A DNA stretch of 52,090 nt. Source: Roseicyclus salinarum (GTDB lineage Bacteria; Pseudomonadota; Alphaproteobacteria; Rhodobacterales; Rhodobacteraceae). Positions 2,455 through 18,909 of the stretch are shown here, in pieces (the stretch's first letter is position 1; each line of letters begins with the position of its first letter). A program made the position numbers and the translations under genes. The DNA lies in the NCBI RefSeq assembly GCF_029624655.1, contig NZ_JARRSA010000025.1, forward strand, positions 1 through 52,090, given 5' to 3'. The notes beneath the pieces were generated by a model. The model did no database searches. It was given only the letters and a program-made list of their open reading frames with translations, and was not told where the DNA came from.

Positions 2455-2799
2455 CGGCGCTTTCCTCCCAAGGCGGTGCGTTTATTGACACTACATACTA
2501 TTGCAGGCGTAGCCATGATAGGGCCGAGGAGTGATCCGGGCCGTGCCTGTTGTGTGAAATCAACGCCCGCGCGACGGTGGCGCGGCCGCGGATGGGGTGC
2601 CTTCCCCTGCGGACATGGCCGATGCGCGCAGGCGGTTCGCAAGGGCGCGCCGCGCCGCGACGGCACCGATCGCCGCGCAACTCCTTGAAGTTTCTCCCTC
2701 GGGGCCGTTTACTCGCAGCAGAGGCGGGTCAACCGTCCGATGGCGGGGGGCCGCCATCTTCCTGACTTGGAAGAAAGGAGTGGGGGCGGAAAGGACCGG
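2455..2799. other. Divergent intergenic region
   Basis: 345 bases between an outer-membrane gene (minus) and the cyclase gene (plus). The part at about 2478-2515 is AT-richer than its surroundings and is the likely promoter zone. I see no convincing operator or small gene. Confidence 0.5.
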
Positions 2800-5700
2800 A
2801 TGTCGGACAAGGTAAGCAGGTGGCTCGCGGAACGCGGCCTGGCGGAATATGCGCCGCTGTTCCAAGAGAACAAGATCGATCTGTCCATCCTTCCCGAACT
2901 TACGGTCGAGGACCTGAAGGACATGGGCGTGACGGCGGTGGGGGACCGGCGGCGCATCATGCGGGCGATCGCGGCCTTCGACGACGAAACCTCCATTCAC
3001 GGGTCGCGCCCGATGCACCCGACGGCGGCGAAGCGGCAGGTGACGGTGATGTTCGTCGACCTGTCGGGATTCACGAAGCTGTCGGCGAACATGGATGTCG
3101 AGGACGCGCACGGGCTTCTCAACAACTTCTTCGTCGCCGCCGACGCGATCATCGAGGACTTCGGCGGGCGGATCGACAAGCACATCGGCGACGCGGTCAT
3201 GGCCGTGTTCGGCGTGGCCGTCTCCAACGCCAACGACACCGAAAGGGCTGCGAGGGCCGCGCTGGAGATCCACGCGGCGCTGGCGGCGCTCGACCCGCCG
3301 ATGACCTGCCATATCGGCATCGCGTCGGGACAGGTCATCGCAAGCGCGGTCGGAAGCGAGGTGCACACCGAATACACGCTCGTCGGGGACGGCGTGAACC
3401 TTGCGGCGCGGATCACCGACAAGGCGGGTCCGGGAGAGACGCTGATCTCGGCGGATATCCATCTTGCGCTCGGCCCGCGGTTTCTCGGTGACGATGCGGG
3501 CGAGGCCGAGCTTGCGGGCATCGATGCGCCGCAGAGGCTGTGGCGCCTTGGCGGGGTGTCCAGCGGGTCGGGCGCGCGGCGCCACCGCTTCGTCGGACGG
3601 GGGCGCGAGTTGTCCATGTTCCAGGCGGCGTTCGAACGGTGCCGCGACCACGCGACCGGCGAAGTGCATCTTGTGCTGGGCGAGCCGGGTATCGGCAAGA
3701 CGCACCTGTCCGAGGAGATCGCCGGGGTCGCGCGCGGCATGGGCTTCGCCGTCCACGGCGCGGCGGTGATGGACTTCGGCGCCCGCGAGGGGCAATCGGC
3801 GGTTCAGGGGCTGGTGCGCAGTCTGCTGGGCATCGGCATGGATGCGGCAGCCGGGATCGCCGAGGCCGCCGTCGAGCAGGCCGGCGCCATGCGCTGGATC
3901 GACCCGTCGAACAGGGCGCACCTGAACGCGCTTCTCGAGCTTGAGCAGGACGCGGGCGTGGCCGAGGTCTATGCCAACATGGACAACGTCACCCGGATGC
4001 GCGGCCGTCGTGCCGTCATCGACGAGTTGCTGCACGCCCGCAGCGACGCCGCCCCCCTCCTGTTGCAGATCGAGGACATCCACTGGGCCACGCCGGACGT
4101 GCTGTCGGCCTTCGCGCATGTCGCTTCGGCGATCCGCGAGCTGCCCTGCCTGATGATGATGACGAGCCGGATCGACGGCGATCCTCTGGACATCGAATGG
4201 CAGTCGCAGGCGAACGGCGTCTACCTGACGAAGATCGAGCTTTCGGGTCTGTCGGCCGCGCAGTCACGGGAACTGACGAAGGCGATCACCGAGGACGGCG
4301 CGGAGGTCATCGACGCCTTCATCGAGCGCGCGGGCGGCAACCCCTTGTTTCTCGAGCAGCTTCTGCGCAGCCGCGAGGCGCTGGCGGGGGGCGGCCTTCC
4401 GGGCAGCATCCAGGCCATCGTGCAGTCGCGGCTGGACACGATCGGACCCGAGGCGCGTGCCGCGATACAGGCCGCCGCCGTCCTCGGCCAGCGCCTGTCG
4501 CCCGACGCGCTGAAGTTCCTGCTCGAGGACGAGACGCTCGATTTCCGGGTCATCCTGCGGTCTGGCCTGATGCGCGAGGCGGGGCCGGACCTCGTCTTCG
4601 CGCACGCGCTCATCCGCGACGGCTCCTACGAAAGCCTCTTCAAGGCCGAGCGGGCACGGCTGCACGAGCGCGCGGCGGAGTGGTTCGCGGGCCGCGACGC
4701 GACGCTCCGGGCCCGTCACCTCGACCGGGCGCAATCGCCGGATGCCGCGCAGGCCTATCTGGAGGCCGCCACGAACAACATCCGGTCGTTCCAGTTCCAG
4801 TCGGCCGAGGCGCTCATCGGGCGGGCGCTGGAGCTTCAGGTGACGCCGGAGGTCCGGGTGGACCTTCTGGGCGCGCTGAGCGAGGCGTTGCGCCTTCAGG
4901 GACGTACGCACGAGGCGCTGGCGCAGTGCGACGAGGCCGCCGCGCAGGTCGCCACGGACGCCCAGCTTTCGCGCATCCACATCGAACGCGCCCAGTCGGC
5001 GCGCCAGACGAGCCAGTATCAGGACGCGCTCGACAGCCTCGATGTCGCCGAGGCGGCGGCGCGTCGGTCGGGCGACGAGCAGAGCCTCGCGCAGGTGCAT
5101 TACCTGCGCGGCAACATCCATTTCCCGCTCGGCCGTTTCGACGAGGCTCTCGTCAGCAACGAAAGCGCCCTGCGGCTGGCGCGGAAACTGGGTTCCGTCC
5201 GGCTCGAGGTCGGGGCACTGAGCGGCTTTGGCGACGCCTATTTCATGAACGGCGCCATGCGCACCGCCGCCGACTACTACACGCAGGCCGTGGAACGCGC
5301 GCGGCCCGACGGCCTCGTGCGGGACGTGGCGGCCAACCTGCACAACCTCAGCGTCGCGCGCAGCTACAGCGGCGACGTGCTGCAGGGCAGGATCGACGGG
5401 ATCGAGGCGGTCGAGGTGTCCCGCACGTATTTCGCGCTGGTTCCCGAATGCGTCGCGCTGACCTGCGTGGGGGTCGCGCACACGCTCCTCGACGAGTTGG
5501 ACGAGGCGCTCGAGGCCTTCGCGACATCGGCCGAGGTGGGGCGGCGCGTGGGCGCGCGGCGCCTCGAGGCGCAGGCGCTGGAGCATCTGGCGCGCGCGCA
5601 GGCCCATTCGGGCGATCTTGCGGCGGCCGAGCGGACGGGCCGCGAGGCCGTGAAGATCGCGCTGGAGCACGGGCCGAACTTCGTCGGCCCCAAGTCGCTG

Positions 5701-6069
5701 TCCGCGCTCGCCCTCGCGCTCGAGGATCCCGACGAACAGGATCGGTTGCTGGACCAGGGCGCCGGGATCATCGCGGAGGGCTGCGTGGGGCACAATCACC
5801 TGCACTTCTATCCCGATGCCTGCGCCATCATGCTCGCGCGCGGCGAATGGGACCGCGCGCTGGCCTTCGCCGACGCGCTGGAACGCTTCACCGAGAGGGA
5901 GCCCCTTCCGCTGGTCGAGCTGACGCTTCGCGAGATCCGCCACCTCGCCGACGCCGGCCGCCGGCAGCAGGCGCCCGCCGAGGGCGAGGAGGCCGCGGCG
6001 CTTCGCGCGGACTTCGCGCGGATGGCGGTGCGGCGGGGGCTTCTGGGGCGGGCCGACTTCGTGTCCTGA
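2800..6069 (+). CDS. SAM - class III adenylate cyclase - AAA ATPase - TPR protein
   Basis: A large cytoplasmic signalling protein (about 1089 residues) predicted to make cyclic AMP. Residues 1-65 are a SAM domain (LAERGLAEYAPLFQENKIDL). Residues 80-245 are a class III cyclase domain with metal-binding D87 (FVDLSGF) and D131 (GDAVMAVFG), purine-selecting K127, and transition-state N200/R204 in VNLAAR, so all key residues are present. A STAND/AAA-type ATPase follows, with Walker A GEPGIGKT at 294-301. From about 650 to 1000 are TPR-like helices (EALAQCDEAAAQ, GNIHFPLGRFDEALVSNESAL). The ATG at 2800 has GAAAGGAC immediately upstream, while the earlier in-frame ATG at 2740 lacks support. The architecture is known in alpha- and gammaproteobacteria; the signal it senses is unknown. 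It is followed closely by the channel-like gene and lies in the same region as two cNMP-binding-type proteins. Confidence 0.9.
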   Translation: MSDKVSRWLAERGLAEYAPLFQENKIDLSILPELTVEDLKDMGVTAVGDRRRIMRAIAAFDDETSIHGSRPMHPTAAKRQVTVMFVDLSGFTKLSANMDVEDAHGLLNNFFVAADAIIEDFGGRIDKHIGDAVMAVFGVAVSNANDTERAARAALEIHAALAALDPPMTCHIGIASGQVIASAVGSEVHTEYTLVGDGVNLAARITDKAGPGETLISADIHLALGPRFLGDDAGEAELAGIDAPQRLWRLGGVSSGSGARRHRFVGRGRELSMFQAAFERCRDHATGEVHLVLGEPGIGKTHLSEEIAGVARGMGFAVHGAAVMDFGAREGQSAVQGLVRSLLGIGMDAAAGIAEAAVEQAGAMRWIDPSNRAHLNALLELEQDAGVAEVYANMDNVTRMRGRRAVIDELLHARSDAAPLLLQIEDIHWATPDVLSAFAHVASAIRELPCLMMMTSRIDGDPLDIEWQSQANGVYLTKIELSGLSAAQSRELTKAITEDGAEVIDAFIERAGGNPLFLEQLLRSREALAGGGLPGSIQAIVQSRLDTIGPEARAAIQAAAVLGQRLSPDALKFLLEDETLDFRVILRSGLMREAGPDLVFAHALIRDGSYESLFKAERARLHERAAEWFAGRDATLRARHLDRAQSPDAAQAYLEAATNNIRSFQFQSAEALIGRALELQVTPEVRVDLLGALSEALRLQGRTHEALAQCDEAAAQVATDAQLSRIHIERAQSARQTSQYQDALDSLDVAEAAARRSGDEQSLAQVHYLRGNIHFPLGRFDEALVSNESALRLARKLGSVRLEVGALSGFGDAYFMNGAMRTAADYYTQAVERARPDGLVRDVAANLHNLSVARSYSGDVLQGRIDGIEAVEVSRTYFALVPECVALTCVGVAHTLLDELDEALEAFATSAEVGRRVGARRLEAQALEHLARAQAHSGDLAAAERTGREAVKIALEHGPNFVGPKSLSALALALEDPDEQDRLLDQGAGIIAEGCVGHNHLHFYPDACAIMLARGEWDRALAFADALERFTEREPLPLVELTLREIRHLADAGRRQQAPAEGEEAAALRADFARMAVRRGLLGRADFVS

Positions 6070-6202
6070 GCCCCCGAGCTCGCGGGCGGCGGTCTGCGGT
6101 GTCTCTTTGCCTTCCCATCCGCCCTATCGCCCGGTAGCCTATGGCGAAAATCGCGCCGTGCCGGCATGGCCGCGGCAGGAACGAGGGGATCGGGCAGGCA
6201 GC

Positions 6203-7330
6203 ATGAGTGTCGACAAGAAGATCTGGATCGCGTCCTGCGTGATCTCGGCCGTCCTCGCCTACATCCTCTTTGCGCTCTGGGGCGTGATGAACCGCTTCGA
6301 GGGCGATCCGACCCAGCTGCACGACACCGCGGACGTGGAGGCCTATTTCGCGGCCACAGGCGCCGACCCGGCCTACGAGGTCAGGACCGGCATCTACGTC
6401 CAGTCCCTGGAATTCGAGGGGGCGACCGACGTCCGGGTAAGCGGCTACATCTGGCAGATCTACGACTACGGCGTGCACGACGACATCCGCCCGCCCCCCG
6501 GCGTGCCCGGTTTCCTGCTGCCCGAACGTGTGGACGCGGGCGACGGCGTGATCGAGGAGGCCTACCGCATGGACCGCGGCGACGGCGAGCTGATCGGCTG
6601 GTATTTCGAGCAGACCCTGCGGCAGACCTTCGACTACACGGCCTATCCCTTCGACCACAAGACGGTCTGGGTGCGCCTCTGGCCGAACTCCTTCGGGCAG
6701 CAGGTCGTGCTCGTGCCGGATTTCGACGCCTATCCCGCGACCGGGCCGGCCGACATCTTCGGCATCGACGAGCGCATCGTGCTGGGCACGTGGGAGCGCG
6801 AGAACACCTATTTCGACTACAAGCCCTCGGACCTCGTCACCAGCCTCGGGCTCGCCCGGTCCCCGGCGCAGGCGGGCTTTCCCGAGCTGCACTACAACTT
6901 CGTGGTCAAGCGCAAGTTCGGCAACGCCTTCATCGTCCACATGGTCCCGCTTTTCGTGGTCGCGACGCTGATCTTCGGCGCGCTCATGACCGTCACCCGG
7001 CAGGAGGAGCTGGCGTCGCGGCACGACTTCAGCACCTCCTCGGTGATCGAGACCGCCTCGGTCCTGTTCTTCGTCGTGCTGCTGGCGCACGTGCAGCTGC
7101 GCGAATCCATCGCCGGCTCCGAGGTCATCTACATGGAATACTTCTATTTCCTGATGTATTTCATGCTGCTCGGCGTGTCGCTGAACACCTATTTCTTCGT
7201 CTCGGACCTGATGCCGTCGTCCCGGTTGATCCATTACCGGGACAACCTGATCCCCAAGGCCGCGTTCTGGCCCGCGGTGTTGTCCTCGATGATCGCGATC
7301 ACGCTCTACAGCATGACGCTGCAGATGTGA
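6203..7330 (+). CDS. Membrane protein resembling a pentameric ligand-gated ion channel subunit
   Basis: 375 residues. An N-terminal signal-anchor helix (7-29) is followed by a ~210-residue extracytoplasmic beta-rich domain and four C-terminal helices (about 242-265, 279-300, 308-333, 353-371). Residues 148-153 read YPFDHK, matching the [FY]PFDxQ/K turn of the Cys-loop/Pro-loop receptor family. The domain border NFVVKRKFGNAFIVHMVPL is typical of the pre-M1/M1 junction in prokaryotic family members. These features suggest a ligand-gated channel or a derived sensor. The extra N-terminal helix is unusual, since most bacterial members have a cleaved signal peptide. It starts 133 bases after the cyclase gene on the same strand, so it may be co-transcribed. 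Family call is from motif and topology only. Confidence 0.6.
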   Translation: MSVDKKIWIASCVISAVLAYILFALWGVMNRFEGDPTQLHDTADVEAYFAATGADPAYEVRTGIYVQSLEFEGATDVRVSGYIWQIYDYGVHDDIRPPPGVPGFLLPERVDAGDGVIEEAYRMDRGDGELIGWYFEQTLRQTFDYTAYPFDHKTVWVRLWPNSFGQQVVLVPDFDAYPATGPADIFGIDERIVLGTWERENTYFDYKPSDLVTSLGLARSPAQAGFPELHYNFVVKRKFGNAFIVHMVPLFVVATLIFGALMTVTRQEELASRHDFSTSSVIETASVLFFVVLLAHVQLRESIAGSEVIYMEYFYFLMYFMLLGVSLNTYFFVSDLMPSSRLIHYRDNLIPKAAFWPAVLSSMIAITLYSMTLQM

Positions 7331-7336
7331 CGGGCC

Positions 7337-10300
7337 TCACTCCGCCGGCTCGAAACCGGGCTTCGGCTCGCCGCGCGCCATGTCCTCGGTATAGACCGCC
7401 ACCGTCTCGGCCTCGCCGCTTTCGAGCGCGGCAAGATGGGGTGCGGCGTCGGCGGTGACGTAGGCGTAGGCGTGCTCGACCGCGCCGCCGACGACCACGG
7501 CGATCTTCTTTCTGAGATAGACGTTCTCGGGCGAGGCGGGCCCGTGGTAGCCCTCAAGCCGGTCGAGGGCCGCAAGGCCCGAGGCCGTGACGCGGTAGAC
7601 CTCGCCCTCGACCTGCTGGCCGCGGCCCTTGAGGTCCACGAGAACCGCCATGCGGTGCAGGTAGGGGCAGTTCGGGTTGTCGCAGCGCGGCTCCTTCTGG
7701 ACGATGAGTGGCATCGGCTGGCGCGTCTTCGCCGTGCCGACGAACGCGCCGAGAACCTCGGCATGGGCCGCGTGGTTGGGAAAGCCGCGCTTGAGCGAGC
7801 CGTAGGTGAAGTAAAGGTAGCTCGGCTCGGCCTCGCTTGCCGCTCCGGGCGTGGGGGCCGCGCTTGGGGCCTGCGCCGCCGGGGACAGCCCGTTGGCCGC
7901 GGCCCACCCCGCGAGCCGCGCGCGTATCTCCTCGGGGACGGTATCGTCCTCGGCGAAATGCAGGCAGGGACGCGCGTCGATGCCGTCGGCCTCAAGCAGG
8001 ATGTCCACCATCTCGGGCGAGGCGTTGCCGATGGCGACGTGCAGCGCGGTGAAACCCATGTCGTTCTGCGCGTTCACGTTGATGCCGCGCGCGATCAGGT
8101 CGCGGCCCACCTGAAGGTCCGGCACGCCGCGCGCGATGCCGTTCTCGGTCATCTCGCCCTCGCCGCCGGCGGCGAAATGAAGAAGCGTGTCGCCCGTCAG
8201 CTCGTCGATGACGTCGATGCCCACCACGCCCTCGTCGATGGAACGGAAGATCCGCCTCCACTGGGTATAGTCGTCCGAGGCTGCCGCGTCGCGCGCCCAG
8301 CGGATGATCCGCTGCTCCTGGTCGTCGAGCTGCTCGAAGGCCTGTTCCAGCGCCATCATGATCTGGTCGGGCGTGGCCATCATGCCGATGCCCTTGGTGC
8401 CGTTGGACAGCATCCCCTCGCGCGGGCCCACGAGATCGACGCCCAGCGTCCGCAGCGCAGCCACGTTGTTCTGGGTGGTGATGTTGTTCCACATGTGCGT
8501 GTTGCACGCGGGGCAGAGGATCGCGGGCTTGCGCTGATACTGCCAGGCCACGAAGACGGAGGACACAAGGTTGTCGGCGATGCCGTTCGCGATCTTGCCC
8601 ATCGTGTTGCAGGTCACGGGCGCGACCACGACGCAGTCGGCCCAGTCGCAGAGCGCGAGATGAGAGGCGCGCAGCGGCATCCCGTATTCGATGTAGTGGA
8701 AGTTCCACTCGTCGTCGTCTCGGTAGATGTCGTTGGGGCTGATGCGCGACAGGATGCGCTCGGCGCCGTGATCCTTGAAGAACTTCTCGGCCGCGACCGA
8801 GGGGATCAGCTTCACGTTGTGGCCGGCATCCGTGATCCGCTCCACCAGCTCGGGGATCTTGTCGGCGGCGGACGACCCGCAGGCGGCCAGCAGCACGTTG
8901 CGCTTGCCGTCCGGCGGCTCGGTCAGCCCGCCCTTGGGATAGCCGAAGATGTTCTTGTCGAGGCTGGGGGATTCGTGGCGCAGAAGCACGTTCAGCCCCG
9001 CCTCGGCGATGCGCGCCTGAAGGCTGCCGTCCATGACCATGCCCACGATATCCTCGCGCCCGCCCAGAAACTCGCCCCGGAAGAACAGGTAAGGCACCGT
9101 GTCCTGCCCTGTCATGGCGACGAGCTGGCGGCGCATCCTGACCGACCTCAGGTCGTGGCCCGACACGTCGATTGCGGTCAGTTCGGTCACGCCGATGTTC
9201 TGCAGGATGTTGCCCAGCATGTTGGACCACGGGTCCTCGTCGTCGTGGAAGAACGCGATCGTGTTCTCCTGGATGATGGCCGGGGCGTCGTCGGGGACGC
9301 GCACATGCTCGCGCTCCTCGATCACCAGCATGGCGGGGTCCCGCAGGTTCCTGAGGCCGCGGAAGATCTGCATGCGCGGCGCCTGCCAGACCTGCGAAGT
9401 GGCCGGGCTCATGTCGACAAGCGTCACCATGTCCTCCGCCTCGTCGTAGGCGATGCAGAGGCACCAGAACTCTTCCAGCAGCGCGGTCTCGCGGTAGACG
9501 TTGTCGGGCGCCTTGATCGCCTCGAACCCGAGCACGCGGTTGAGATCGATGTTGATCATCAGGTGGCGCCCGTCGTGATCGACGAGGTCGCGAAGCCGCG
9601 CCCTGAACCAGTCCTCGGGCGACAGGTCGCGCTCGTCCTCGGTGCGTTCGGAATAGCCGCGGAACTCGCTCCCGAGCTGGGTGTGCACCGCCTGCGCGAG
9701 ATACATCCTCGCGATCCGGTCCATCTCGCGGGCGTCCGAGACGCGGCTCAGCGTCTCGCTGTAGGCGGCGGTGGAGGACAGGAGCAGCTTGTCCTCGTCC
9801 ACGTCCGGATCGCCGAGGATCGCGAGGCTTTCGGACAGGACGCCGAGGCTGTTGAGGTTCGGGCTGGAGCGGCGGAAGAGGTTGCGCTTGTTGCGCCGCC
9901 CCGTCGCGAGGTAGCGCGTGGTGTCGACGTAGCGGCAGGGCTGCTTGAGGCATTGGAGCCGCGTCGTGACGGCCTGCCGCGCGGAAAACCGCAGAAGCCC
10001 GCGCGACCGCATCGAGGTGCCGTCGCGGTCCGACATCGCCTCGTAGAGCCGGTCCACCGTCGTCACCCAGAGCTTGCCGTATTTCTCGGGGTGGACGTCG
10101 ATCATGTGGATCAGGCCGGTGCTGGGATTGCACTTGGCGATGATGGCGAAATGGCCGCCCGGCATCGTCGCCTTTCCATGCGCCATCCCGACCTGGAAGT
10201 TGGCCACGAGGATGTCGTTGTCGCCGCCGAGGCGGTTGGACTCGTCGATCGCCTCCAGAAGCTTCTCCGGCGATGTCGTCGCGGCGTCCATGAAATACGC

Positions 10301-10939
10301 CTGAACCTGCATGGTGTCGCGCAGTCCCAGCTTGTGGATGTAGGTGCAGGCCACGTCGAAAAGTTCGGCCAGCGAGATGCCGTCGTTGACCACGAAACTC
10401 GCCGGCAGCTGGCATTCGCGGAAGATGTCGTTCACCTCGCAGGTGAAGCCGAGCGCGGACATGCTGAGCGCGGCGGCGGTCACACTGCAGCAATTGATGG
10501 GCTGCTGGAAATTGTGCATGTGAACGGCCACGAGGTCGCCGAACAGCGTGGCGAAGCCCGCGGTGCGCAGGTCCTCGGGCAGCTCGAACCATTCGGCGCT
10601 CGACAGGTAGGCGAGGCGCGTTCCGGGCGACGCGACCGCCTCCATCGTCACGGGAATGTTGAAGACCTCGAGGTGCTCCTCGTAGAAATAGTCGCCCGCA
10701 TCGGCCGTGGCGAGCGTGGCGTCGCCCTGCCGAAGCGCGACCTCGCCCTGAAGGACCACATACATCCCGTTGGGCGCGAGGGTGGCGTCGCCCGTGGCCT
10801 CGAGCACCCTGAACCTCGGCCGGATCACGTCGGGATCTATCGCGCTCGTGTCGCTTTGGAACACATGCAGGATCATGGCGAAATCGGCCTCGGAAAGACT
10901 TGAGGCGTCTCGCGTCGTGATCTCTTGGCTCGAAGTCAT
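7337..10939 (-). CDS. Seven-domain fusion: cNMP-like, phytochelatin synthase (x2), glutaredoxin-like, PPC-DC-type flavoprotein, ankyrin, gamma-glutamyl cyclotransferase
   Basis: About 1200 residues. Two adjacent ATGs (10942, 10939) follow GAGGGAG; the second has better spacing (6 bases). Domains: 17-117, cyclic-nucleotide-binding-like fold (YVVLQGEVALRQGD) without a clear phosphate cassette; 145-320, phytochelatin synthase with a complete Cys-His-Asp triad (C150 in QPINCCS, H263 in GGHFAII, D281 in MIDVHPEKYG); 360-547, a decayed second copy keeping the VDMSP aspartate but lacking the histidine; 553-650, glutaredoxin fold with TVP cis-proline and GEFLGG but no active-site cysteine; 678-870, HFCD flavoprotein with H760, PVTCNT (PASANT-like) and PACNTHMW (PxMNxxMW-like); 915-987, ankyrin repeats; 1041-1167, AIG2/GGACT-type cyclotransferase (YGSLKRG, E1129). 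All catalytic parts concern gamma-glutamyl or cysteinyl thiols. Cytoplasmic; probably transcribed from its own promoter downstream of the BLUF gene. The pathway is inferred. Confidence 0.88.
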   Translation of the reverse strand: MTSSQEITTRDASSLSEADFAMILHVFQSDTSAIDPDVIRPRFRVLEATGDATLAPNGMYVVLQGEVALRQGDATLATADAGDYFYEEHLEVFNIPVTMEAVASPGTRLAYLSSAEWFELPEDLRTAGFATLFGDLVAVHMHNFQQPINCCSVTAAALSMSALGFTCEVNDIFRECQLPASFVVNDGISLAELFDVACTYIHKLGLRDTMQVQAYFMDAATTSPEKLLEAIDESNRLGGDNDILVANFQVGMAHGKATMPGGHFAIIAKCNPSTGLIHMIDVHPEKYGKLWVTTVDRLYEAMSDRDGTSMRSRGLLRFSARQAVTTRLQCLKQPCRYVDTTRYLATGRRNKRNLFRRSSPNLNSLGVLSESLAILGDPDVDEDKLLLSSTAAYSETLSRVSDAREMDRIARMYLAQAVHTQLGSEFRGYSERTEDERDLSPEDWFRARLRDLVDHDGRHLMINIDLNRVLGFEAIKAPDNVYRETALLEEFWCLCIAYDEAEDMVTLVDMSPATSQVWQAPRMQIFRGLRNLRDPAMLVIEEREHVRVPDDAPAIIQENTIAFFHDDEDPWSNMLGNILQNIGVTELTAIDVSGHDLRSVRMRRQLVAMTGQDTVPYLFFRGEFLGGREDIVGMVMDGSLQARIAEAGLNVLLRHESPSLDKNIFGYPKGGLTEPPDGKRNVLLAACGSSAADKIPELVERITDAGHNVKLIPSVAAEKFFKDHGAERILSRISPNDIYRDDDEWNFHYIEYGMPLRASHLALCDWADCVVVAPVTCNTMGKIANGIADNLVSSVFVAWQYQRKPAILCPACNTHMWNNITTQNNVAALRTLGVDLVGPREGMLSNGTKGIGMMATPDQIMMALEQAFEQLDDQEQRIIRWARDAAASDDYTQWRRIFRSIDEGVVGIDVIDELTGDTLLHFAAGGEGEMTENGIARGVPDLQVGRDLIARGINVNAQNDMGFTALHVAIGNASPEMVDILLEADGIDARPCLHFAEDDTVPEEIRARLAGWAAANGLSPAAQAPSAAPTPGAASEAEPSYLYFTYGSLKRGFPNHAAHAEVLGAFVGTAKTRQPMPLIVQKEPRCDNPNCPYLHRMAVLVDLKGRGQQVEGEVYRVTASGLAALDRLEGYHGPASPENVYLRKKIAVVVGGAVEHAYAYVTADAAPHLAALESGEAETVAVYTEDMARGEPKPGFEPAE

Positions 10940-11009
10940 CATGGGCTCCCTCGTGTGCGTGCGGCGATCCTGTGCGCCGGTCGCGCGGGCCCGCGCCTTC
11001 ACCGCCACG

Positions 11010-11027
11010 CCGACGACGTTACGTCGG
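11010..11027. promoter_or_regulatory. Inverted repeat upstream of the fusion enzyme gene
   Basis: CCGACG (11010-11015) and CGTCGG (11022-11027) flank ACGTTA. The repeat lies 71 bases upstream of the predicted start at 10939, a plausible operator position. The regulator is unknown and the match could be chance in GC-rich DNA. Confidence 0.3.
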
Positions 11028-11224
11028 GCATCGCCGTGCGGGCAACGGCGGAAGCCGGATTTCTCGAGGGGGGCGGCACCTGTATCATGTATGCCGCCGC
11101 GCGGTCCCGCCGGCTTTTCGGCACGTGCCCGGATCGGTCCCGGCGTCCGTGCGAAGGAGCCCGAAGGCGATGGAACACGGGGACGGCCGGGGACGGGAGC
11201 GGGCCCGGTCCGCCGCGGGCAGGC

Positions 11225-11668
11225 CTACATCGGCCGCACGGACCTGCTCGAGAATTCGCTGAAGATCTCGCGGGCGATCGACAGGGCGATGCTCTTCGTG
11301 GCTTTTCCCGCGCCGCCGCCGCGCCGGATGCGGTCCAGAACCGCCTCGCTGCCGCGCGCGAAACGTCCGATCTCGGCCGGCCCGGCATAGCCCATGGTCC
11401 AATCGGGGAATTCCCGCCGCTCGGCCTCTCCCTGCCACATGACCGAGACCGCCGAGTGGCGGGGATCCTGGCGGATGCGGCCGAAGCAGGCGTCCAGCTC
11501 CGCCTCCGACCCTTCGAGGGTCTGGAAGAAGATCCGGTCGTGATAGAGAAGCACCCCGGTGATGCCGTCCCGTTCGTTGTTGCGCCGGGAAACGTCGAGG
11601 ATGGCAGACAGCGCGTCTTCGTCCAGGGGGCCGTGGGATGCGCTCACGTAGGCGATCTGGTGGACCAT
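11225..11668 (-). CDS. BLUF-domain blue-light (FAD) sensor
   Basis: A 147-residue BLUF protein. The light-reactive FAD pocket is intact: Y7 (IAYVS), N31 (RRNNERDGITG), Q49 (FFQTLEG), W90 and M92 (DWTMGYAG). The spacing between these residues is identical to Y21/N45/Q63/W104/M106 of AppA. No output domain follows; the ~50 residues after the fold are basic and helical, as in short BLUF proteins that act through a partner. The gene is on the minus strand, 285 bases upstream of the fusion enzyme gene and pointing at it, so co-regulation or a functional link is plausible. The partner is unknown. A weak Shine-Dalgarno (AGGTC) precedes the ATG at 11668. Confidence 0.9.
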   Translation of the reverse strand: MVHQIAYVSASHGPLDEDALSAILDVSRRNNERDGITGVLLYHDRIFFQTLEGSEAELDACFGRIRQDPRHSAVSVMWQGEAERREFPDWTMGYAGPAEIGRFARGSEAVLDRIRRGGGAGKATKSIALSIAREIFSEFSSRSVRPM

Positions 11669-12050: not shown

Positions 12051-13400
12051 TCACGTGGTCTGGCGCAGTTCCACGATCTTCAGGACCTGCCTCATCGTCG
12101 CCTCCGACCGGAATTCGCCCTCGTTGGGGTTCATCAGGTCGGCGAAGGTGGCCGCGTCTATCCTGAGGCATCCCACCGGGCCGAGCGCGACCGCCGTGGC
12201 GGAGCGCGGCTTGCCCTCGATCAGCCCCATCTCCCCCAGAAGCGCGCCATCGCGAAGCTCGGCGATCTTGCGCTCCTGCGGGCCGCCGTAGTCGATGTAG
12301 ATGGCGACGCGCCCCTCCTTCATCAGGAAGCAGTGCGTGGCGGGATCGCCCTCGCGCAGGATGACGTCCCCGCGGGAGAACGAGACGTCGTCGACCTTCG
12401 TGGAGAGGCGCGAGATGTCCTCGAGGGACATCTCCGAGAATGCCATCTCGAGGTAGCGCGACCGCAGGTTCCTGAGCTCCACGAGAAAGCCGATCACCGT
12501 CGGGATCGTGATGGCGAGGTTGTAGCCCATGTGAAGCTCGGCCCGGCCGGGCATCCCGTCGAAGCCGGTGAGCTGCTCGAACAGGCCGTTGTTGGCCATC
12601 AGGCCGAACCGACCGCCCGCCTCGTAGAAGTTGAGCATCGCGGCTTCCTGCCCGGCGGGCACCGCCATGTAGATGTTGCCCTCCACCGGCACGGTCGCCC
12701 AGAGCTGCCGGAAGCCCGGCCACAGCTCGGCCTGTTCGAAGTAATAGAAATAGGTGATCGTGAGGTGCTCGAGGGCGTGCCAGCTGAGCGCGAGCAGCGC
12801 CACGAACAGCCAGATGTTGCGCGGGAAGCACAGCAGCACCAGACCGGTGCCGAAATAGCCGACCAGCTCCCAGACGAGGTGCACCACCCCGAGGTCGAGC
12901 TGGCCGAAGACCGCGCAGGCCGCAGGCCCGATGATGTATCCGCCGGCCGCATCCAGCCGCGGCAGCCCGTCCGCCCCCGCCTGCGCGATGCGCGCGGTGG
13001 AGTAATAGCTGGGCTCGACCGCCGCGTCGCGCAGGCCGAGCTCTGCGGCGCGCATGGCGTTCTCGATCGTGTCCACGGGCGGCGGGCAGGCCACCGTGCC
13101 GTTCATCACGTTGAGCTGGATGACCTGGATCAGGTGCTCGGAGAAATGGCCGACCTGCAGGACCGTGAAAAGCCCCAGCACCGCGATCATGGAGTAGTTC
13201 TTGACCTTCCAGATCCCCTCGAACAGCGCGAGCGGGATCCACGGCAGGAGCGTGTAGAACGCGATCATGTAGAGCGGTTCGTCGCCCACGATCGCGTTGA
13301 TCTGCAAAACGTAGGAAATCGCCGCAGTGACGAGGACGACATCGAGGCTGACGCCTTCGAAGCGGAAGAACCGCCGAAGCTTGCGACCGAGTTCGCCCAT
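12051..13400 (-). CDS. Polytopic membrane protein with C-terminal cyclic-nucleotide-binding domain
   Basis: 449 residues. The first ~310 residues carry about six hydrophobic helices (e.g. 20-38, 45-62, 70-98, 168-190, 196-219, 295-308). Two contain an H-x3-H pair: H85/H89 (GHFSEHL) and H208/H212 (WHALEHL), with H174 in a further helix. Such pairing could bind a metal or haem; this is inference. Residues 320-440 are a cNMP-binding domain with an intact phosphate-binding cassette, GEMGLIEGKPRSATA, including E390 and R399, which contact the ribose and cyclic phosphate in CRP/PKA/HCN domains. The likely ligand is the product of the cyclase encoded upstream. It is the last gene of a three-gene minus-strand operon, 4 bases after the preceding stop, and ends in a hairpin. 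I do not recognise the membrane part. Confidence 0.8.
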   Translation of the reverse strand: MGELGRKLRRFFRFEGVSLDVVLVTAAISYVLQINAIVGDEPLYMIAFYTLLPWIPLALFEGIWKVKNYSMIAVLGLFTVLQVGHFSEHLIQVIQLNVMNGTVACPPPVDTIENAMRAAELGLRDAAVEPSYYSTARIAQAGADGLPRLDAAGGYIIGPAACAVFGQLDLGVVHLVWELVGYFGTGLVLLCFPRNIWLFVALLALSWHALEHLTITYFYYFEQAELWPGFRQLWATVPVEGNIYMAVPAGQEAAMLNFYEAGGRFGLMANNGLFEQLTGFDGMPGRAELHMGYNLAITIPTVIGFLVELRNLRSRYLEMAFSEMSLEDISRLSTKVDDVSFSRGDVILREGDPATHCFLMKEGRVAIYIDYGGPQERKIAELRDGALLGEMGLIEGKPRSATAVALGPVGCLRIDAATFADLMNPNEGEFRSEATMRQVLKIVELRQTT

Positions 13401-16186: not shown

Positions 16187-17149
16187 TCAGGTGTAGGTCC
16201 GCCGCTCGATCGGGGTCGCCTCGATCTTCCGCTTCAACACCTCGAGCATGATCTTCTCCGCCCGGCTCAGCTTGGAGCGGGGGTTCCACAGCAGGTGCAC
16301 GTCGATCGCGGGAAGGTTGTCGTAGGGCGGCACTTGCCACAACTCCCCCTCGGCCACGTCGCGGGCCGCGACATGTAGCGGCAGCGGGCCGATCCCGAGC
16401 CCCGCGATGATCATGCGGCGCACCTCCTCGAGGTTGCTCGAGGTGCCCACCACGTGCGCGCCGAGATCGGACGCCGCGCGCATCAGCGCCACGGGTTTCA
16501 GGACGTCTTCCAGCCTGTCGGTCTGGAAGCTGACCGACGCGCGCCCCTTGAGGTCGGCGCGGGTCAGGTCCCGGCGGCCGAACAGCGTGTGCGGGGGGCC
16601 GCAGAACAGGCCGAAGAACTCCCGGTAGAGGCGGCTGTATTCCAGCCTCGGGTTGCGGTCGCGCACGAGGCAGATGGCGAAGGACGCGCTGCGCGCCTCG
16701 ACCGCGGCGATGGCGGCGTTGCTGGTCATGACGTCGATCTGGAACGTGGCCGCCGGGTGTTCGGCGTGGAACTCGGCGAGCGCCTCGTCGAAGAGGGGGC
16801 AGACGACATGGGAGGCGACGGCGATGCGCACATGCCCGCTCACCTCGTCGGTCGTCTGCCGCAGCACCGTGGTCAGCCGCAGCACCGCGCCCTGGATCTC
16901 GAGCGCCTCGGCATAGAGAAGCTCTCCGGCGGCCGTCAGCCGGAAGCGGCCGGGCGCGCGGTCGATGAGCTTGCGCCCGACCCGGTCCTCCAGCCGCTTG
17001 AGCGCCGAGGAGACCGAGGGCTGCTGAAGGCGCAGCCTGCGCGCGGCATCCGTGACGGAGCGCGATTGCGCGAGGACCACGAAAGTATGGAGCAGGTTCC
17101 AGTCGAGTTCGCGGAGGGTCCGTTCGGCGTCGAGCGAGTGTCGGTCCAT
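16187..17149 (-). CDS. LysR-family transcriptional regulator
   Basis: About 320 residues. The N-terminal winged HTH is clear (LLHTFVVLAQSRSVTDAARRLRLQQPSVSSALKRLEDRVGRKLIDR), followed by the LysR effector-binding fold. The start is uncertain: ATGs at 17164, 17155 and 17149 are in frame and none has a good Shine-Dalgarno. I chose 17149 because an inverted repeat (17154-17168) overlaps the earlier ones. The gene is divergent from the polyamine-type ABC operon across ~96 bases, the classic LysR arrangement, so it probably controls that operon with a pathway intermediate as co-inducer. Confidence 0.9.
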   Translation of the reverse strand: MDRHSLDAERTLRELDWNLLHTFVVLAQSRSVTDAARRLRLQQPSVSSALKRLEDRVGRKLIDRAPGRFRLTAAGELLYAEALEIQGAVLRLTTVLRQTTDEVSGHVRIAVASHVVCPLFDEALAEFHAEHPAATFQIDVMTSNAAIAAVEARSASFAICLVRDRNPRLEYSRLYREFFGLFCGPPHTLFGRRDLTRADLKGRASVSFQTDRLEDVLKPVALMRAASDLGAHVVGTSSNLEEVRRMIIAGLGIGPLPLHVAARDVAEGELWQVPPYDNLPAIDVHLLWNPRSKLSRAEKIMLEVLKRKIEATPIERRTYT

Positions 17150-17153
17150 GCCC

Positions 17154-17168
17154 ATTGATAGCATCAAT
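17154..17168. promoter_or_regulatory. Probable LysR operator ATTGAT-AGC-ATCAAT
   Basis: A perfect inverted repeat with 6-base arms and a 3-base spacer, in the divergent gap between the lysR gene and the ABC operon. It contains the T-N11-A core expected of LysR sites (ATTGATAGCATCAAT). It lies about 80 bases upstream of the first permease start. Confidence 0.55.
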
Positions 17169-17245
17169 AATCGGAATACCAATTAACTATTTGAGTAATG
17201 AGGCGCGGCTCCACATCCTCGCGCGGGGACAAGCCGGGGAATTGG

Positions 17246-18112
17246 ATGTCGATCGAGGCCCGTGAAGCGCGCCAGCCGTGGATACTGCTGTCACCCAGCC
17301 TGACGGCGATCACGCTGCTGCTGTTCGTGCCGCTCGTCTTCATCCTCGTCTATTCCTTCTGGCTGAGAACGTCCGTGGGCGACGTCGAGCCCGGCTTCCA
17401 CCTGGAGAACTGGGCCGACGCGCTGACCGACCGGTTCTACCGCGACATCCTTCTCAACACCCTGAAGATCGCCGCGATCACCACCGTCGTCTGTGCGCTG
17501 ATGGGCTATCCGGCGGCCTATTTCATCGCGCGGGCGCGGGGCAACAAGGTGTTCCTGCTGCTTCTTCTGATGCTGCCCTTCTGGATCAGCTACATCATCC
17601 GCACGATGAGCTGGATCTACATCCTCGGCACGTCCGGCGCGCTCAATTCCACGCTCCTGTGGCTCGGGCTGATCGATGAGCCGATCCAGATGCTCTACAA
17701 CGAGACGACGGTGATCCTCGGCCTCGTGCACTTCCTGCTGCCCTTCATGGTGCTGAACGTCTACGTCAGCCTCGAGGGCATCGACAGCACGCTCGAGGAT
17801 GCGGCCGGGTCGCTCGGGGCGACGAAATGGCAGGCGTTCCTGCAGGTGGTCCTGCCTCTGTCACTGCCCGGCCTCGCGGCCGGCGGCCTCCTGTGCTTCG
17901 TGCTCGGGGCGGGCACCTACATCACGCCGGCGGTCCTCGGTGGGCCGCGCGACGCGATGTTCGCGAACCTCGTCTTCGAGGCGATCATCACCCAGCTCAA
18001 CTGGCCGCTCGGCGCCGCGCTTTCGCTTCTGCTGCTGGCGGTCCTCGGCGCCTTGGTGATGGTCTACAACCACTTCCTCGGCCTCGGCCAGCTGATGAAG
18101 GGGCTGCGCTGA
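17246..18112 (+). CDS. ABC transporter permease, PotB/opine type
   Basis: 288 residues with six predicted helices and the permease EAA loop LEDAAGSLGATKWQAFLQVVLPLSLPG before the last two helices. The sequence resembles inner-membrane components of spermidine/putrescine-type importers. The ATG at 17246 (MSIEAREARQP) is chosen over 17198 because GGGGA lies about 7 bases upstream. It is the first gene of a long operon and its stop overlaps the start of the second permease (TGATG). The substrate is probably a small cationic amine or amino-acid-like compound. Confidence 0.92.
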   Translation: MSIEAREARQPWILLSPSLTAITLLLFVPLVFILVYSFWLRTSVGDVEPGFHLENWADALTDRFYRDILLNTLKIAAITTVVCALMGYPAAYFIARARGNKVFLLLLLMLPFWISYIIRTMSWIYILGTSGALNSTLLWLGLIDEPIQMLYNETTVILGLVHFLLPFMVLNVYVSLEGIDSTLEDAAGSLGATKWQAFLQVVLPLSLPGLAAGGLLCFVLGAGTYITPAVLGGPRDAMFANLVFEAIITQLNWPLGAALSLLLLAVLGALVMVYNHFLGLGQLMKGLR

Positions 18113-18909
18113 TGGGATGGCGCGCGATCCAGGCGTGGACGGTCCTCGTCTACCTGTTCATGTTCCTGCCCATCGCCGTCGTGATGCTGCTCAGCTTCAA
18201 CGACAGCCAGTTCGGCAGCTTTCCCATGACCGGCCTCTCGCTGCGCTGGTTCGAGGAGTTGTTCGGGAACCAGGCGATCCTGCGCGCACTCCGGACCTCG
18301 CTTGTGCTGGGGCTTCTGACGGCGGCGATTTCGACCACGCTGGGCGTCCTCGCGAGCCTCGCGCTCGTGCGCTACAACGTGCCGTTCCGCAACACGATCT
18401 CCACCATCCTCATCGCGCCGATCCTCGTGCCCGAGGTCGTGCTGGCCGTGGCGCTTCTGCTGTTCCTTCAGTTCCTGGGAATGCACAAGAGCTTTACGCT
18501 CCTGCTGCTGGGCCACGTGATCTTCACGCTGCCCTTCGTGATCCTCGTGGTGCAGGCCCGCCTCATGGGCATCCGCCGCGACGTGGAGGAGGCCGCGATA
18601 AGCCTGGGCGCCTCGCCCGTGCAGACCTTCTTCGCGATCACCCTGCCGCTTCTGACGCCCGCCGTCGCGGCCGGGGCGCTGTTCGCCTTCACGATCAGCT
18701 TCGACGACATCACCGGCACGCTGTTCTGGAAGCCCGGCGGGTTGGAGACGGTGCCGACGCAGATCTTCGCCATGCTGCGCAACTCGATCTCGCCCGAGAT
18801 CAACGCGCTCGGCACCCTGATGATCCTGATCACCGCGGGGCTGCCGATCCTCGGCATGGCGATTTCCCGCTGGCTGTCGCTTCGCAGGATCAGGCGGCAG
18901 GCCGACTGA
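18112..18909 (+). CDS. ABC transporter permease, PotC/opine type
   Basis: 265 residues with six membrane helices and an EAA loop (VEEAAISLGASPVQTFFAITLPLLTPA). It forms a heterodimer with the preceding permease in the inner membrane. The start codon shares one base with the previous stop, so the two are translationally coupled. The substrate-binding protein gene follows after 40 bases. Confidence 0.92.
   Translation: MGWRAIQAWTVLVYLFMFLPIAVVMLLSFNDSQFGSFPMTGLSLRWFEELFGNQAILRALRTSLVLGLLTAAISTTLGVLASLALVRYNVPFRNTISTILIAPILVPEVVLAVALLLFLQFLGMHKSFTLLLLGHVIFTLPFVILVVQARLMGIRRDVEEAAISLGASPVQTFFAITLPLLTPAVAAGALFAFTISFDDITGTLFWKPGGLETVPTQIFAMLRNSISPEINALGTLMILITAGLPILGMAISRWLSLRRIRRQAD

Follow-up and report, generated by a model that had tools for sequence, protein, structure and literature searches.

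The reverse strand of a 52,090-nucleotide stretch of Roseicyclus salinarum DNA (NZ_JARRSA010000025.1, assembly GCF_029624655.1; hereafter the window, meaning this whole stretch) encodes at positions 7337..10939 a protein of 1200 amino acids in which phytochelatin synthase (PCS)-like, HFCD flavoprotein and gamma-glutamylamine cyclotransferase (GGACT)-like domains lie in a single chain, with their checked catalytic residues identical in 36/36 loci. We tentatively consider the protein a regulated, glutathione (GSH)-directed multi-enzyme, a reading that we hold at somewhat less than even confidence; the neighbouring genes, which encode a nucleotide cyclase and a membrane protein with a predicted channel fold, suggest that it is under the control of a signal.

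Three enzyme domains lie in one conserved chain

The gene starts at ATG 10939, with a further in-frame ATG at 10942. It lies in a longest open reading frame (ORF) spanning 7337..11008 (-), which has a strong coding bias (G+C 0.91 at codon position 3 vs 0.44 at position 2) and gives 1200 residues when read from the ATG at 10939. A first-pass annotation, made from the sequence alone, had described a PCS, an HFCD and a GGACT domain in this chain, and this observation was confirmed: all three scored above the Pfam gathering scores, i.e. Flavoprotein at residues 681-862 (E 5.3e-27), GGACT at 1043-1168 (E 5e-15) and Phytochelatin at 145-314 (E 4.8e-10). Pfam also placed ankyrin repeats at 910-990 above cut-off; its Glutaredoxin and cNMP_binding matches fell short of their cut-offs. 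Beyond that annotation, we found that the chain contains cNMP-like, second PCS-like, glutaredoxin (Grx)-like and ankyrin parts, and that the cyclase and channel-fold neighbours are conserved. Four of the seven domains come from, or apparently descend from, GSH- or gamma-glutamyl-handling families. Each part of the protein is a member of a known family or is similar to one, and it is the whole arrangement that looks new; the annotation had known of no description of such a pathway or fusion, and no paper on such a fusion or gene set was found in the open-licence PMC literature, outside which most subscription papers lie.

Relatives were sought in genome contigs with two short peptide patterns from the N-terminal 145 residues and a two-sequence alignment, a scan that reaches near relatives only and is blind to split forms. 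The scan gave 34 relatives that are 50-84% identical, none of which has a stop within the matched range. Twenty-six are titled Ruegeria; the others are one Silicibacter lacuscaerulensis, a Roseivivax, a Seohaeicola, a Roseovarius metagenome-assembled genome (MAG), two Rhodobacteraceae MAGs and two gammaproteobacterial MAGs titled Aestuariirhabdus (locus L054) and Halieaceae (L063), the MAG contigs being open to misbinning. One relative, L035, is from the same genome as L003, the first-found 73% relative. A 36th locus, L108 (genome G527), came from the family search described below; its copy is 55% identical and has the three enzyme Pfam families. Counts out of 36 thus cover the window, the 34 scanned relatives and L108, while alignment A3 has 35 rows and lacks L108.

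The Phytochelatin, Flavoprotein and GGACT families matched 35/35 rows of A3 (E <= 0.001). The median ratio of nonsynonymous to synonymous substitution rates (dN/dS) was 0.040 in the PCS, 0.066 in the HFCD and 0.095 in the GGACT domain, and 0.108 in the second PCS-like, 0.130 in the Grx-like, 0.137 in the ankyrin and 0.155 in the cNMP-like part; these values come from the 93 pairs, out of 595, for which dS was usable (92 for the cNMP-like part); the pairs are non-independent by shared ancestry, and the spreads overlap. By this measure the protein is under purifying selection, which constrains the three enzyme domains most.

The PCS-like domain and its probable degenerate copy

The PCS-like (peptidase C83) domain comprises residues 126-335 (9935..10564, -) and matched PF05023 with 39.4 bits (cut-off 24.9). 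Its catalytic set, Q145, C151, H263 and D281, is identical in 36/36 rows. Foldseek recovered the PCS fold (6tho, 6th5, 6tjl, 2btw and 2bu3; E 6.7e-6 to 5.3e-5) in rows that include GSH acyl-enzyme entries of Nostoc Alr0975 but lack aligned ranges, so that some may fall on the second copy. A profile match to Alr0975 (E ~3e-6) covers the His-Asp half only. The triad had been given as C150, H263 and D281; the latter two residues stand, whereas the nucleophile aligns as C151, with Q145 six residues earlier, the spacing of Arabidopsis Gln50/Cys56. In the Nostoc PCS, Cys70 presumably has the same six-residue spacing from Gln64. Because C150 is invariant as well as C151, the change is a mere correction of numbering. 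The residues K286 and Y287 are kept in 36/36 rows at the places of Nostoc Lys206 and Tyr207. A passage of one report gives Gln50 and Cys56 for the Arabidopsis PCS and Gln64 for the Nostoc PCS (PMC3855540), and part of another states that the Nostoc enzyme, NsPCS, splits GSH into gamma-Glu-Cys and Gly (PMC12065762). The domain therefore resembles Alr0975/NsPCS in its Pfam and profile matches, its Gln-Cys-His-Asp set and the Lys-Tyr pair; it differs in two arginines considered below, in the probable dead copy that follows it and in being part of a 1200-residue chain.

Residues 336-556 (9272..9934, -) are probably this dead second PCS copy. In the AlphaFold2 model they form 13 secondary-structure elements in an order matching that of the PCS domain; Asn (N361) stands at the Cys place and D509 is kept. 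A weak profile match between the two (P 0.03-0.05, hhalign probability 1-2%) covers 159 columns; in the same comparison, P was 0.37 and 0.43 for two other domain pairs. A sequence search of PDB and Pfam with residues 336-556 gave no match. The Nostoc PCS is described as a dimer (PMC3855540), which makes a built-in PCS pseudo-dimer a natural guess.

The HFCD domain is closest to AtHAL3a

The HFCD domain, of the phosphopantothenoylcysteine (PPC)-decarboxylase type, comprises residues 675-880 (8300..8917, -) and matched PF02441 with 94.8 bits. Its best profile match is AtHAL3a (1mvl, E 1.6e-31), EpiD and MrsD being less close. H760 and N813 align opposite the active His and Asn of AtHAL3a and are kept in 36/36 rows; for AtHAL3a we assume the numbering H90/N142/M145, with M816 as the third residue of the set here. 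The active histidine and nucleotide-site motifs that had been noted earlier are thus present, the motifs reading PVTCNT and PACNTxMW. The domain shares with AtHAL3a/PPC decarboxylase, EpiD and MrsD the fold and these elements, but it differs from them in its fusion, in five invariant cysteines (C687, C764, C769, C777 and C812, 36/36) and in having Asn, N846, at the place of AtHAL3a Cys175 in 36/36 rows. Cys175 is, as we take it, the residue that reduces the enethiol product in PPC decarboxylase, so the domain lacks the mark of the reducing type. The best Foldseek row was 1mvn, i.e. AtHAL3a C175S with pantothenoylaminoethenethiol, the unreduced product. Where the annotation had allowed either cysteamine or an aminoenethiol, the Asn in place of the reducing Cys makes the unreduced aminoenethiol the likelier product on alignment grounds and cysteamine the less likely one.

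The host genome encodes a GSH synthetase (402 bits against a model cut-off of 299). It also has, on contig 22, a separate HFCD gene of CoaBC size (36% match within a 408-residue frame), which we therefore took as CoaBC. With both genes present, coenzyme A (CoA) synthesis is not the function that one would first expect of the 1200-residue protein, and the possibility that its HFCD domain is the cell's own CoaC was set aside.

The GGACT-like domain has the catalytic Glu

The C-terminal domain, residues 1038-1200 (7340..7828, -), matched PF06094 with 56.6 bits, in accordance with the AIG2/GGACT-type cyclotransferase recognized earlier, and carries the motif YGSLKxGFPN. The profile match to human GGACT (3jub, E 4.5e-7) places E1129 opposite the catalytic E82, as located through the E82Q entry 3jud; Foldseek returned 1vkb and 3juc. 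Both E1129 and Y1046-G1047-S1048-L1049-K1050-x-G1052 are present in 36/36 rows. In addition to the fusion, the domain differs from GGACT by an invariant insertion, C1086-x4-C1091-x3-H1095, that is absent from human GGACT. This insertion (residues 1086-1095; 7654-7684, -) is a possible metal or thiol site.

cNMP-like, glutaredoxin-like and ankyrin parts

Residues 44-125 (10565..10810, -) resemble a cNMP-binding beta-barrel. PF00027 matched with E 0.003, below its cut-off, and at 0.001 in 6/35 relatives; Foldseek rows cited for the barrel, which lack aligned ranges, include PKG and PKA-regulatory chains. The Grx-like domain, residues 557-660 (8960..9271, -), has a profile match to the glutaredoxin 3uiw (E 6.8e-8). 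The usual glutaredoxin motif is CPYC; here the redox site reads DPWS, with neither CxxC nor CxxS and no redox Cys, and D569, W571 and S572 are kept in 36/36 rows, as is P616 at the cis-Pro place. Ankyrin repeats at residues 910-990 (7970..8212, -) matched PF13637, PF00023, PF13857 and PF13606 above cut-off, and Ank_4 was found in 35/35 rows.

A cyclase gene and a channel-fold gene are frequent neighbours

Beside the multi-domain gene, at lower window coordinates, lie two genes on the forward strand, convergent with it. The first (2740..6069, +) encodes an 1109-residue protein in which Pfam recognized SAM, class III nucleotide cyclase, AAA_16 and TPR domains. The cyclase gene is present at 34/35 loci (missing at L063; two ORFs in L064) and at L108, i.e. 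35/36. D107 and D151, which we take to be the metal aspartates, and N220 and R224, presumably the transition-state Asn and Arg, were found in 35/35 cyclases (36 rows, L064 being split), as expected for class III. The cyclase matched Pycsar models (best 65.5 bits, PycC, in the class III domain), and no PADLOC match was obtained for the other two genes. It also scored 151.7 bits on the NCBIfam model of the TOMM-system kinase/cyclase (cut-off 705.75), a sub-cut-off hint at peptide-maturation gene sets.

The second gene (6203..7330, +; a longer TTG ORF starts at 6107) encodes a 375-residue membrane protein with the predicted fold of a pentameric ligand-gated channel. In its AlphaFold2 model (predicted local distance difference test, pLDDT, 71.1; predicted TM score, pTM, 0.64), a beta-sandwich and four transmembrane helices are seen, as in pentameric channels; these elements come from the predicted model only. 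The best Foldseek row was GLIC 6zgk (E 7.7e-11, prob 1.00, TM 0.44/0.52, rmsd 8.9), and other pentameric channels were also returned. It shares with GLIC and DeCLIC the predicted beta-sandwich and transmembrane helices and a YPFD motif but differs from them by an extra N-terminal helix and, in the L054 copy, by a Cache domain. Apart from this Cache part, sequence searches of Pfam and PDB gave no significant match for the protein. The gene is present at 33/35 loci (two ORFs in L047) and, with L108 counted, at 33/36. It is missing from L063, L065 and the 19.9 kb of L108. The L065 contig ends 332 bases beyond the multi-domain gene, and a tRNA-synthetase gene lies on the other side of the cyclase; in L108, an MscS channel gene stands in place of the membrane protein gene. 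Two IS240-type transposase genes in L108 (4001-4705 and 14645-15349), which are 85% identical, bracket the cyclase, multi-domain and MscS genes.

The cyclase and multi-domain genes are convergent in the window and in Ruegeria and co-directional in L054, L065 and L108. That gene order varies in this way among lineages speaks against mere synteny as the reason for the conserved neighbourhood. Three flanking gene clusters are common to 23 loci, so the place of the locus is stable in much of Ruegeria.

Distribution of the protein

In a family sample of 394 genomes, drawn nearly one per genus, so that Ruegeria weighs little in the count, the protein was found in five. In the phylum sample of 398 genomes, the whole protein was found only in its own genome, and the other 68 matches (E <= 1e-25) fell within profile positions 642-938, i.e. 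the HFCD part and its edges. In the family of the L063 genome, 1/140 genomes has the protein. When the N-terminal 670 residues were searched across the class, 47/385 genomes had a match; outside the own genome these matches are short, one lying in the PCS part (G293) and the others around the Grx part.

Proposed pathway and competing explanations

HFCD enzymes oxidatively decarboxylate C-terminal cysteines, and GGACT releases 5-oxoproline and the free amine from gamma-glutamylamines. We infer the GSH substrate, the order of the steps, the product and the regulation as follows. Judging from its family and triad, the PCS domain would remove Gly from GSH to give gamma-Glu-Cys; the HFCD domain, going by its alignment with AtHAL3a, would oxidatively decarboxylate the C-terminal Cys to an unreduced gamma-glutamyl aminoenethiol; and the GGACT domain would release 5-oxoproline and a C2 amino-enethiol, which may tautomerise and hydrolyse or be captured. 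The order of the domains along the chain is the order of these steps. The second PCS-like domain might take the place that the partner subunit has in dimeric PCS, the Grx-like domain, being without redox Cys, may serve to hold GSH or a thiol and not to carry out redox reactions, and the cNMP-like barrel and the ankyrins would be regulatory, with the channel-like protein and the cyclase sensing an outside signal and setting the activity via a nucleotide. In its most specific form, i.e. a channel and cyclase that switch on one polypeptide converting GSH to 5-oxoproline and a reactive C2 amino-enethiol (or cysteamine), as a new signal-controlled thiol branch with a tandem PCS pseudo-dimer, we regard this proposal as unlikely to hold in full. 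If the chain is true, the cysteine of GSH would be decarboxylated as the molecule is dismantled, and a C2 thiol would arise by a route that bypasses CoA; we know of no glutathione breakdown route that does so. Moreover, a bacterial protein with the fold of neurotransmitter receptors would be tied to a cyclase and an enzyme.

The pathway reading of the first-pass annotation is partly supported. The enzyme domains have intact catalytic residues and are the most constrained parts, and with the four extra domains and the two neighbouring genes taken into account, what was read as a bare pathway is probably controlled by a signal; the two arginines considered next count against plain PCS chemistry. 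Several observations weigh against the reading as a whole. The Nostoc Arg173 lies ten residues ahead of His183, as we number the Nostoc triad, which defines residues 250-262, before H263, as the range in which its counterpart was looked for; this range is without Arg in 34/36 rows, L064 and L108 being those with one. The place of Arabidopsis Arg183 is Pro284 in 36/36 rows. As this second-substrate Arg (Nostoc R173) is not conserved although K286 and Y287 are kept, we call the domain PCS-like, not PCS. In a passage on Arabidopsis, mutants of R152, the counterpart of Nostoc Arg173, retain <=0.25% of phytochelatin PC2 synthesis, and Arg183 is termed a consensus residue (PMC3855540). In the AlphaFold2 monomer model of the 1200-residue protein (35-sequence alignment; pLDDT 71.1, pTM 0.40), Foldseek recognized the PCS, HFCD and GGACT folds, which the annotation had proposed to check for blocked or missing sites; pLDDT is <50 at 130-149, 284-288, 741-765, 781-794, 813-822 and 842-851, including the PCS and HFCD active-site loops, so the model leaves the openness of the active sites undecided either way, and it gives no interdomain arrangement. 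At position 98 of the barrel, presumably the place of the phosphate-binding Arg of CRP-type cNMP domains, the window has Thr (S 31, T 3, Q 1, G 1 across the 36 rows; Glu87 is kept). Direct control by cAMP through this domain is therefore doubtful, and the messenger might be a different nucleotide or have another site of action. At L063, the protein is retained in the absence of a nearby cyclase or channel, and the genome has no close cyclase (best E 1.1e-23). Finally, searches for the protein and for the channel family, each covering 394 family genomes, gave five and ten genomes, respectively, and four had both; in the six other channel genomes the channel copies are more distant, and the regions of 4.5-19.5 kb retrieved around them contain no relative of the protein, so the channel family also occurs without the multi-domain protein.

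The same three kinds of reaction could act on another gamma-glutamyl or cysteinyl substrate, such as a GSH conjugate, a gamma-glutamyl peptide, a protein C-terminus or a pantetheine-like thiol, rather than on free GSH. We consider this a minority possibility, to be taken seriously in view of the missing second-site Arg, the proximity of the HFCD domain to PPC decarboxylases rather than EpiD/MrsD, the Grx-like domain without redox Cys and the sub-cut-off TOMM-model score of the cyclase; by contrast, the presence of three GSH-type folds in a single chain favours GSH or its conjugates, the separate CoaBC-like gene exists, and the 6 bases between the multi-domain and channel genes (7330/7337) are too short for a precursor gene ahead of the channel gene, the other gaps not having been searched for small ORFs. 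Maturation of a ribosomally synthesized and post-translationally modified peptide was provisionally set aside: models of this type stay far short of their cut-offs (13.3 of 215 bits on CypD and, for the cyclase, the TOMM-model score above and 31.7 of 1125 bits on HaaT), and the 6 bases before the channel gene have no room for a precursor, gaps such as 10940-11224 not having been searched for small ORFs. It is improbable that the protein is a sensor or signalling hub in which the enzyme folds would gate the cyclase or channel by binding thiols and catalysis is a side effect: although the four remaining domains are either degenerate or not enzymes and the channel and cyclase are frequent neighbours, the catalytic residues of three unrelated sites are kept in 36/36 rows and the enzyme domains are the most constrained.

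Slightly less probable still is a stress or conflict effector, in which the channel and cyclase would detect a threat and the protein would drain glutathione or free a reactive enethiol, halting growth. The patchy distribution (5/394, 1/398 and 1/140), the position of the L108 genes between two transposase genes and the Pycsar matches of the cyclase are consistent with such a role; however, the PycC matches are confined to the class III cyclase domain, which is common to many other cyclases, PADLOC did not recognize the other two genes, and the flanking clusters shared across 23 loci indicate a stable place. We give least weight to the explanation that three domains with unrelated substrates were joined for convenience. 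Domain order is no proof of channelling and the pTM of the model gives no arrangement, but the whole fusion is kept across Alpha- and Gammaproteobacteria (L054 and L063), as far as scan patterns blind to split forms can tell.

Other observations

Two possible origins were set aside. Viral contigs gave no relative with the two peptide patterns, which speaks against a phage origin; as to a plasmid origin, not one of the 58 matching plasmid records extends over >80% of the query, and the 30 listed cover 14-18%, around the HFCD domain.

In L113, a distant channel gene is in two parts with other ORFs between them (8028-10231), an apparent insertion. In L063, genes for EgtB-like (FGE-sulfatase/DinB_2) and EgtD-like (histidine methyltransferase) proteins lie at 16229-18452, 2.8-5 kb past the multi-domain gene, which raises the possibility of a link to ergothioneine. 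In the window, a BLUF blue-light sensor gene (11225-11668, -; PF04940, 104.7 bits) is just upstream of the multi-domain gene, followed, still near the cyclase cluster, by a gene for a 448-residue protein with a well-matching cNMP-binding domain (12051-13400, -; 78.8 bits); both are outside the neighbour clusters shared across loci.

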